From positions 1 through 36,092 of IMG/VR virus record IMGVR_UViG_3300020205_002915: 36,092 nt of DNA, one strand, 5' to 3'. Source of the stretch: a virus. The translations under genes and the position numbers were made by a program. The notes under the pieces are model-generated. The model was not told the DNA's origin. It worked only from the letters and a program-made list of their open reading frames with translations, and ran no database searches. Position 1 is the stretch's first letter. Each line of letters starts with the position of its first letter. Shown one piece after another: positions 7,459 through 22,589 of the stretch.

Positions 7459-7466
7459 TATTTATA
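7459..7466 (-). promoter_or_regulatory. T4 late promoter (perfect TATAAATA)
   Basis: A perfect T4 late octamer on the minus strand. The start would fall near 7453, leaving a leader of about 30 nt before the ATG at 7422. It likely drives the head-associated block 7422 to 4524. Confidence 0.75.
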
Positions 7467-21168: not shown

Positions 21169-21654
21169 TTAGTCTTGTGAACTTTCTGTGAGTAACTGCT
21201 TCTCAGCTTTTTTATCAGCTTTGATTTCAATTTTCTTCGGCTTCTTATGCTCAGGAATAATACGCTCAAGGAAAACCTTTAGCATACCATTGAGCATTTC
21301 AGCATCTTTAATTTCAATTTGATCTTCAAGAGTGAAAGTGCGAGTGAAGTTACGATTGGCAATTCCTTTGTATAAGAAATTGTTCTCTTCTTCCTCGTTC
21401 TTAGCACTACCTCTGATGATCATGTTACCATTATCAAGTTCGATTTCAATATCCTGTCTCGCAAAACCGGCCACGGCAATTTCGATAACGTATGTGTTAT
21501 CGCCAGTTTTCTTAATGTTGTACGGAGGATAGTTGGGAATGTTTTTCGTCAGGTCGTCATGCATCTTAGCAATGCGATTGAACTGATCATCAAAACCAAC
21601 AAAGAAACGATCAAAGTCCTTGAACCCAGGACCAAATACTGATAGATGTGTCAT
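21169..21654 (-). CDS. Small heat shock protein, Hsp20/IbpA type
   Basis: A 161-residue alpha-crystallin-domain chaperone. The N-terminus (FDRFFVGFDDQFNRI) matches IbpA-type proteins, the core runs from about residue 45 (YPPYNIKKTGDNTYVIEIAV, with AGFARQDIEIEL) to NGMLKVFLERIIPE, and the tail is Lys/Glu-rich. It holds unfolded proteins in soluble form. Phage hsp20 genes are common in T4-like cyanophages and related marine phages, where they may assist virion assembly. GGGAGG lies about 6 nt before ATG. Downstream is a strong terminator. Confidence 0.9.
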   Translation of the reverse strand: MTHLSVFGPGFKDFDRFFVGFDDQFNRIAKMHDDLTKNIPNYPPYNIKKTGDNTYVIEIAVAGFARQDIEIELDNGNMIIRGSAKNEEEENNFLYKGIANRNFTRTFTLEDQIEIKDAEMLNGMLKVFLERIIPEHKKPKKIEIKADKKAEKQLLTESSQD

Positions 21655-21668
21655 TATAAACCTCCCAG

Positions 21669-21884
21669 TTACTTCTTTGCAGTAAATAACTTTGATACTG
21701 CAACTTCTGCTGCGGCACCAGTCACGTCCCAGTAAGTCTTAGCGACCTGCTTGGTAAATGCGGTTTGTGCATCAACGAATTGTTGGAGGGGTTTACGGAC
21801 TTGTTCGTCAGTGACGAATGTTTTGAGCCAAGATGTCTTGGATGATTGAATGGCGTCAATAGCCATGTCTGCGTATAATAGCAT
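21669..21884 (-). CDS. Small helical protein, phasin-like
   Basis: A 71-residue Ala/Thr/Gln-rich helical protein. The pattern QQFVDAQTAFTKQVAKTYW with conserved-looking Gln/Thr/Lys spacing resembles phasin-type proteins that coat polyhydroxyalkanoate granules, but the match is visual and short. An AAAGGAG site lies 7 nt before ATG. It is the first gene after a late promoter and a structured RNA with a terminator-like hairpin, so its expression may depend on read-through. Confidence 0.5.
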   Translation of the reverse strand: MLLYADMAIDAIQSSKTSWLKTFVTDEQVRKPLQQFVDAQTAFTKQVAKTYWDVTGAAAEVAVSKLFTAKK

Positions 21885-21911
21885 AATTGCTCCTTTAATA
21901 AGCGAGTTGAT

Positions 21912-21937
21912 AAAAAACCTACCCTAAAAGGCGTAGG
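21912..21937 (-). terminator. Terminator-like hairpin upstream of the phasin-like gene
   Basis: On the minus strand CCTAC-G-CCT, loop TTT, AGG-GTAGG: eight pairs with one bulged G, followed by six T (21917-21912). It could end the structured RNA or act as an attenuator. Confidence 0.6.
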
Positions 21938-21992
21938 CCCGAGGAATTTGTATACAGCCTTTCCTCGGACTGCTGTTTCCCATCTCTGGGAC
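21912..21992 (-). ncRNA. Structured late RNA: GNRA hairpin, H-type pseudoknot, terminator
   Basis: Read 5' to 3' on the minus strand from the predicted late start (about 21992): hairpin UCCCA-GAGA-UGGGA (21991-21978) with a GNRA tetraloop; then ACAGC (21976-21972) pairing with GCUGU (21958-21954), and CCGAGGAA (21968-21961), inside that loop, pairing with UUCCUCGG (21946-21939). This crossing of 5-bp and 8-bp stems is an H-type pseudoknot with loops of 3, 2 and 7 nt. A 3' hairpin with a U-run (21937-21912) follows. I recognise no known riboswitch or phage RNA class. It may be an independent small RNA of about 80 nt or a regulatory leader for the gene at 21884. Confidence 0.6.
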
Positions 21993-21997
21993 ATATC

Positions 21998-22005
21998 TAT
22001 TTATA
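21998..22005 (-). promoter_or_regulatory. T4 late promoter (perfect TATAAATA)
   Basis: A perfect octamer on the minus strand, placed just after the rubredoxin stop. By T4 spacing the start is about 21992, one base before the first stem of the structured RNA. Confidence 0.7.
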
Positions 22006-22008
22006 TAA

Positions 22009-22140
22009 TTATTCCATTAGGACGTAGTCTTCTTTTGACACCCCACACTCCGGGCAACTAACGGAATCGGGTAAGCTCAGATAATCAGCTTCCGATAAGG
22101 TGTGACCGCAGACAATACAAACGTAAATTCTTTCAGACAT
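22009..22140 (-). CDS. Rubredoxin-like iron protein
   Basis: A 43-residue protein with CIVCGH (residues 8-13) and CPECGV (29-34): the two Cys-x-x-Cys knuckles of rubredoxin, with the usual short spacing between them seen in minimal rubredoxin domains. It would bind one iron by four Cys and carry single electrons. Its ATG overlaps the TAA of the rubrerythrin gene (TAATG), so the two are coupled and together match the two domains of classical rubrerythrin. Confidence 0.85.
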   Translation of the reverse strand: MSERIYVCIVCGHTLSEADYLSLPDSVSCPECGVSKEDYVLME

Positions 22141-22589
22141 TATAGACCTCCTAGGACTTGTTTATAAGCATCGGCATGACGCTCTTCAACTTTCTTCAAA
22201 GCAGCGAAGCGCTTTTCAGCTAAAGCTAAAACCTTTTTGAACTGCTGAGCATGTTCGTTCGACTCACGGCCTTGCTCATTAAATTCTTTTACAGCTTCAA
22301 TGTTTGACTCTGCCTTTGCCTGACGTTCAAACTGAGGATACATTGTTGTAAACTCATACGTCTCACCTTCAATAGCAAGCTCCAGACACTTACGTGTATC
22401 TGGTTTACCGACTAACAATTCCAAATGTCCCCATGCGTGCAAGATCTCTTGATCTGCTGTATGCTCAAAATGTTTTGCTACATCCTCAAACCCCTCTTCA
22501 CGGGCAATCTTTGCAAAATAGCGATATTTAATATGAGCCATTGACTCACCAGCCAATGCGCTTTCTAAGTTTTCAATTGTTACTGACAT
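22140..22589 (-). CDS. Rubrerythrin-like diiron peroxide reductase
   Basis: A 149-residue ferritin-like four-helix protein. Helix A has AGESMAHIKYRYFA, helix B HFEHTADQEILHAWGHLE, helix C EGETYEFTTMYPQF and helix D GRESNEHAQQF; these carry the Glu/His diiron ligands in rubrerythrin order. The C-terminal rubredoxin domain of classical rubrerythrin is missing here and is instead encoded by the next gene. It should reduce hydrogen peroxide with electrons from that rubredoxin. AAGGAG lies about 6 nt before ATG. It is unlike the Dps-like protein at 6107. Confidence 0.9.
   Translation of the reverse strand: MSVTIENLESALAGESMAHIKYRYFAKIAREEGFEDVAKHFEHTADQEILHAWGHLELLVGKPDTRKCLELAIEGETYEFTTMYPQFERQAKAESNIEAVKEFNEQGRESNEHAQQFKKVLALAEKRFAALKKVEERHADAYKQVLGGL

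Follow-up and report, generated by a model that had tools for sequence, protein, structure and literature searches.

The stretch of viral DNA analyzed here (36,092 nucleotides of IMG/VR record IMGVR_UViG_3300020205_002915; henceforth the window) codes on its minus strand for an Hsp20 small heat-shock protein. Between this gene and a structured segment further upstream sits a 71-aa ORF with no Pfam match above the cut-off and no good PHROG match, so that the first gene behind the segment is not hsp20 itself (Table 1). We interpret the segment as most likely being the leader at the 5' end of a phage mRNA that covers the 71-aa ORF and Hsp20. Judging by the sequence comparisons presented below, it is quite probable that in this leader a 5' hairpin (HP1) and an H-type pseudoknot precede a ROSE-type element, whose two hairpins include one that sequesters the SD of the first gene. 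Genes for rubredoxin and rubrerythrin lie directly upstream of the leader (22009-22589, minus strand), and a 90-aa ORF (21722-21994), whose start codon is missing in the closest relative, L003, overlaps the leader region.

Table 1. Features of the leader and of the genes that follow it in the window
Feature	Position (strand)	Basis or remarks
T4-type late promoter motif TATAAATA	21998..22005 (-)	sequence; same place before the leader in many relatives
HP1, 5' hairpin UCCCA-GAGA-UGGGA	21978..21991 (-)	GGGAUGGGA-type 3' strand recurs in relatives
H-type pseudoknot	21939..21976 (-)	sequence and covariation (S1), arm swapping (S2)
Pseudoknot stem S1	ACAGC 21976-21972 / GCUGU 21958-21954 (-)	
Pseudoknot stem S2	CCGAGGAA 21968-21961 / UUCCUCGG 21946-21939 (-)	
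Pseudoknot third loop, A-rich	21953-21947 (-)	
Hairpin I of the ROSE-like element, bulged G 21932	21917..21938 (-)	fold and covariation
U6 tract, linker to the SD hairpin	21912..21917 (-)	not conserved; first U also able to pair
Hairpin II (SD hairpin), CUC-G-CUU / AAG-GAG	21890..21906 (-)	UCGCU anti-SD, bulged G 21903 opposite SD
71-aa ORF, first gene after the leader	21669..21884 (-)	start codon at 21884
Hsp20 small heat-shock protein, second gene	21169..21654 (-)	PF00011 E=1.6e-18; phrog_432 E=2.4e-44

A first-pass annotation of the window had listed a late promoter motif, a hairpin with a GNRA loop, two crossing stems, a third hairpin and a run of six U, and all of these are present, on the minus strand. 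The promoter motif and HP1 are both there, the former being at chance level when taken alone (two copies of TATAAATA in the window against 2.55 expected) and the latter folding by itself at -6.4 kcal/mol; most relatives lack the GNRA loop that HP1 has in the window. The geometry of the pseudoknot, with loops of 3, 2 and 7 nt, is also as described. The second copy of the promoter motif (7459-7466, minus strand) has, by eye, no comparable leader structure behind it. Taken alone, the folds of the window depart only a little from chance expectation (z -1.7 to -2.3); plain folding of 21938-21888 returns both hairpins of the ROSE-like pair, including the bulged Gs, at -13 kcal/mol (z -1.69). The 8-pair hairpin and the six U likewise exist, but the description had missed the bulged G in that hairpin, which is hairpin I of the ROSE-like element. 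Moreover, the element runs past the claimed end of a terminated RNA of about 80 nt, as far as hairpin II. The latter lies outside the annotated interval and changes the reading of the element. Among the three options offered, that of a leader for the 71-aa gene is upheld.

The option of an 80-nt terminated sRNA, or of an attenuator before the 71-aa gene, draws on the combination of hairpin I and U6 in the window and on the U-rich tails that are common in its own clade. However, the closest relative keeps hairpin I without the U6, a run of at least five T follows hairpin I in just 15 of 95 distinct leaders, and hairpin I belongs to a unit extending as far as the SD. An intrinsic terminator would combine a hairpin with a conserved U tract; here the tract is not conserved, and the terminator scan skips hairpin I. 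We rejected this reading as very improbable, given the poor conservation of the U tract and the extension of the ROSE-like unit to the SD; because of the U-rich tails, some termination at hairpin I may nevertheless occur in the window's clade.

The ROSE-like pair itself recurs widely. Across the leaders of contigs encoding the 71-aa ORF, the SD region CUCGCUU...AAGGAG hardly varies; the anti-SD is UCGCU in the window and UUGCU in Mosig, HTVC008M, C48C1, Melnitz, S-CRM01 and G005. Scanning viral contigs for CTCGCTTAN{0,8}AAGGAG recovered at least 119 stretches, which together with the loci found earlier make up at least 146 sites, not deduplicated (L115, for example, repeats the contig of L005). 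Hsp20 is encoded within 1.5 kb downstream at 111 of these at least 146 sites, 85 of them among the scan matches listed. Among the sites thus listed, hairpin I with its bulged G accompanies 100 of the 111 sites with Hsp20 and 12 of the 35 without it; a comparable CC hairpin arises in 0.05-0.4% of letter shuffles. In an alignment of 98 rows, 79.3% of the hairpin I cells are paired, versus 56.5% after shuffling, and 216 cells show a double change, versus 90 after shuffling (216 was reached in 0 of 500 shuffles, with slid controls at 72 or below); eight of its nine pairs have changed on both sides. The first-pass annotation had made its structured RNA depend on covariation in relatives, and both hairpin I and stem S1 of the pseudoknot (see below) covary strongly in comparison with shuffles. 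The predicted hairpin II is almost devoid of covariation, since its anti-SD and SD are fixed by the search pattern, and the case for it is one of conservation, apart from a C/U alternation at one position. A bulged G opposite the SD is a feature of ROSE-type RNA thermometers.

A covariance model (R1) was built from 24 leaders, including those of phages S-H35 and S-SM1 and leaving out the window. It matches the window at 48.1 bits (E=2e-13), as the sole site in that record, and finds one strong site in each of eight phage records. Outside the training set, R1 has a match ahead of hsp20 in 18 of the 19 loci from named phages, 17 of them at E<=2e-4 and HTVC008M at 0.031, with S-TIM54 giving none. 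Among metagenomic phage loci picked by Hsp20 alone, 78 of 80 have a match (77 full length, one truncated), some of these contigs being training contigs as well and several loci sharing contigs across searches; the contigs of the two misses (L263, L268) start at the first ORF. The number of phage records that match the window's Hsp20 is 507. On the bacterial side, R1 matches 77 of 80 hsp20 loci picked by Hsp20 (none in L386 and L420, a weak one in L404), a highly redundant set of mostly near-identical SAR11 loci. The phage elements in this respect resemble the hsp20 leaders of SAR11 and marine gamma- and alphaproteobacteria. Within the 8 kb around E. coli ibpAB the best R1 match is the ibpB leader (E=8.4e-5), and both it and the phage elements contain ACUCGCUU...AAGGAG. 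The ibpB leader is itself a tested thermometer.

Known Rfam models capture these elements poorly. At gathering thresholds, the window and 17 loci yielded a single tRNA (in L026), which agrees with the first-pass annotation in its remark that no Rfam class was recognized in the window. The ROSE_3 model (RF02523; gathering threshold 43) reaches 13.4 bits (E=1.9) on the window, 19 and 15.2 bits on the S-H35 and S-SM1 leaders (the best matches of those records), E=0.013 on L185, and at most, among the phage leaders, 35 bits (E=1.3e-6) on the hsp20 leader of G005, a 194-kb record. Searched across the genomes of eight phage records, it found nothing in three of them, the window's included, and its matches in G003 and G004 (E 1.04 and 0.289) lie away from the R1 and pattern sites. 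For comparison, E. coli ibpA matches ROSE_2 at 100.4 bits, and the phage elements come nowhere near it. As all the ROSE_3 scores are below 43, we call the phage elements ROSE-type by virtue of their architecture and the bacterial link, and not as members of RF02523.

In this broad sense the class assignment appears sound on sequence and modeled structure: the elements lie in small heat-shock protein leaders, adjoining the start codon of that gene (in the window, with the 71-aa ORF in between), are predicted to pair a U(U/C)GCU anti-SD with the SD, have a bulged G and are preceded by hairpin I. They share with ROSE_3 and with the short ROSE-like thermometers of Pseudomonas ibpA, as presented in the accessible text of PMC3669281, the two hairpins before a small heat-shock gene, the SD in the second of these and the U(U/C)GCU anti-SD; in cmscan alignments, hairpin I also follows the ROSE_3 order of stem, unpaired G, CC, loop and GG. 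Unlike these, the phage elements are often driven by a late promoter, going by the motif, fall below the Rfam cut-off and have a weaker SD hairpin, and the window's clade adds HP1 and the pseudoknot in front and a small ORF between the element and hsp20. The SD hairpin of the window is predicted at about -3 kcal/mol at 37 C as a 39-nt piece, which is predicted to fold otherwise at 30 C or below; the values given for the Pseudomonas elements in the same text are -4.1 to -7.6 kcal/mol (PMC3669281).

The bacterial and phage copies also differ in their promoters. A CTTGA (sigma32-like) site is found within 60 nt upstream in 69 of 77 bacterial but 3 of 77 viral leaders, whereas strict TATAAATA is found within 110 nt upstream of the element in 30 of 77 viral but 6 of 77 bacterial ones. 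A short late-like motif within 45 nt in fact occurs more often in the AT-rich bacteria (23 of 77, versus 10 of 77 viral leaders), which leaves the longer motif and the sigma32-like site as the sole features that distinguish the two groups. The bacterial copies are mostly behind a sigma32-like promoter and the phage copies often behind a T4-type late promoter motif. With late-type motifs rather than sigma32 sites preceding the phage copies, heat is not an obvious transcriptional trigger.

The 71-aa ORF is encoded in 26 viral contigs, and comparison of their leaders (L025 has no upstream sequence) revealed that the hairpins are kept and, in most, also the pseudoknot, with very different stem sequences. 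In L001, L004 and L006 only the last two hairpins follow TATAAATA, HP1 and the pseudoknot being absent. Stem S1 is paired in 94.7% of cells across 25 sequences, versus 70.5% when shuffled; double changes affect six of six pairs and total 30 cells, versus 7.3 in shuffles, none of 500 of which reached that number (slid controls, 13 or below). As the register of S2 differs between groups, it could not be counted in the same alignment, and arm swapping was used instead: native arms give 16.1 and swapped arms 9.3 (0 of about 2000 permutations), with the native arms strictly best in only 6 of 16 cases and the arms picked by eye or by a finder, which favors native pairing. By these comparisons the structure is an H-type pseudoknot, with two crossing stems kept by compensatory change.

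A pseudoknot search anchored on HP1 gave 36 non-redundant matches from 189 anchors, against none from 75 anchors in reversed sequence; the window, being without the exact HP1 anchor (GAGATGGG), is not among the 36. Twenty-nine matches directly precede a ROSE-like SD hairpin, two (L185 and L195) are followed by an extra domain and then such a hairpin, one (L246) belongs to another gene, and four (L036, L216, L228, L238) resemble chance matches in coding sequence. An unanchored finder had a false rate of 14.7% at -14 kcal/mol. The strict pseudoknot search had matches in 15 of 77 viral leaders and in one of 77 bacterial leaders, the latter probably by chance, which adds to the CTTGA site as a difference between the two. 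HP1 and the pseudoknot constitute an additional module, observed only in a subset of phages. The module has no Rfam match in the window. Another 5' pseudoknot in a T4-like phage mRNA is that of the T4 gene 32 leader, which belongs to a different gene and has no ROSE-like element.

The extra domain is a conserved RNA of about 100 nt between the pseudoknot and the ROSE-like element (L185 2908-3012, L026 1836-1934, L195 456-566; also L186). Its ends are complementary in L185 and L026, double changes affect 7 of 25 predicted pairs in three sequences, and the L185 copy has no convincing Rfam match at a permissive threshold. The other gene preceded by the pseudoknot is a small one coding for FEIR..ELL proteins (L220 1281-1597, without HP1; L246 3850-4179, with HP1); in L246, hsp20 comes after it with its own promoter and ROSE-like pair.

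SD sequestration follows from the structure and most likely serves the translational control of Hsp20. Closed hairpin II would keep translation low and would open as the temperature rises. The predicted SD exposure is lower than that of control SDs and its rise from 15 to 37 C is steeper (log10 1.79 versus 0.90; n=95 and 105), but this is weak evidence, as a stronger hairpin alone yields the same pattern. By analogy with E. coli IbpA, Hsp20 may also bind its own leader, and hairpin II would possibly open, too, when Hsp20 is drawn off by aggregated protein. Taken further, this analogy suggests a leader that is mainly an Hsp20-binding operator, an aggregation sensor rather than a thermometer, where free Hsp20, acting through the ROSE-like hairpins, represses its own translation and the repression is lifted by unfolded late phage proteins. 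The E. coli precedent, as described in the available portion of PMC10474464, is that IbpA represses itself via its RNA-thermometer leader and needs R93 to bind it. The aligned residue is Arg in the window's Hsp20 and invariant across 17 phage Hsp20s (a wide alignment too diverse to serve as a search query), and the late-type promoter motifs fit this reading as well. Against it, the position equivalent to K98, a residue on which repression by IbpA likewise depends, is occupied by T, G or V in the three aligned phage proteins, and the Arg may have been kept for folding. We regard a mainly operator-like leader as somewhat doubtful; IbpA-like self-repression is still a serious alternative or addition to the thermometer.

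The added module would either stabilize the late mRNA or hold S1/30S near the hidden SD. As a 5' stabilizer blocking 5'-end-dependent decay, a role that the accessible text of PMC3669281 suggests for 5' hairpins, it would be aptly placed next to the predicted transcription start; the conserved A-rich loop is left unexplained by this proposal, which we hold to be possible at somewhat below even chances. As an S1/30S standby site, it would help ribosomes to capture a transiently open SD. A 5' pseudoknot has been proposed as such a site in E. coli tisB (PMC7708055, in the part available), and the order there, with an H-type pseudoknot, a linker and a sequestered SD, is the same, albeit with unrelated sequence and other stem and loop sizes. 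The A-rich third loop, a fold kept while its stems vary, and the presence of the module before a gene lacking the ROSE pair (L246, and L220 for the pseudoknot) are in line with a standby site, the last implying that the module acts independently of the pair. On the other hand, many phage leaders that carry this ROSE-like pair lack the module (L001, L004 and L006; all but 15 of 77 in the strict search), and we consider a standby site rather unlikely. For the pseudoknot, the two roles are equally possible.

In evolutionary terms, an element common to bacterial hsp20 genes would have exchanged its sigma32 promoter for a late promoter in phages, and some lineages would have added HP1 and the pseudoknot. 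We tentatively propose, at less than even odds, that the hsp20 of marine and freshwater T4-like phages is equipped with a ROSE thermosensor of host type in which this promoter exchange has taken place, and that some lineages went on to assemble a composite riboregulator: its 5' pseudoknot would attract S1/30S, and entry would be gated by the ROSE hairpin in response to heat or Hsp20 titration. Such a riboregulator, if real, would be a viral proteostasis sensor. The known thermometer-like case in phages is lambda cIII (PMC4166951, accessible part). No phage ROSE element or hsp20 thermometer was found in the literature searched, bioRxiv preprints and most subscription text aside, and "thermometer" does not occur in the available text of PMC3827213 and PMC5028025, both on cyanophage small heat-shock proteins. 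Many cyanophages and related T4-like phages carry hsp20. If a ROSE-type leader is indeed common to these phages and marine bacteria, the phages would have taken over a post-transcriptional stress sensor of their hosts and replaced its promoter. The leader makes it possible to test concretely at what point, and to what end, phages produce Hsp20. The pseudoknot module, which covaries cleanly, is separable from the ROSE-type pair as a second element.

The position of the R1 element further suggests that some annotated hsp20 starts are wrong, namely in S-T4 (L167; element 647-692, start 776) and P-HM2 (L171; element 443-487, start 423). In HTVC008M (L160, about 430-590), several hairpins precede the hsp20 leader, two of them with similar CTCGTAAAT loops.
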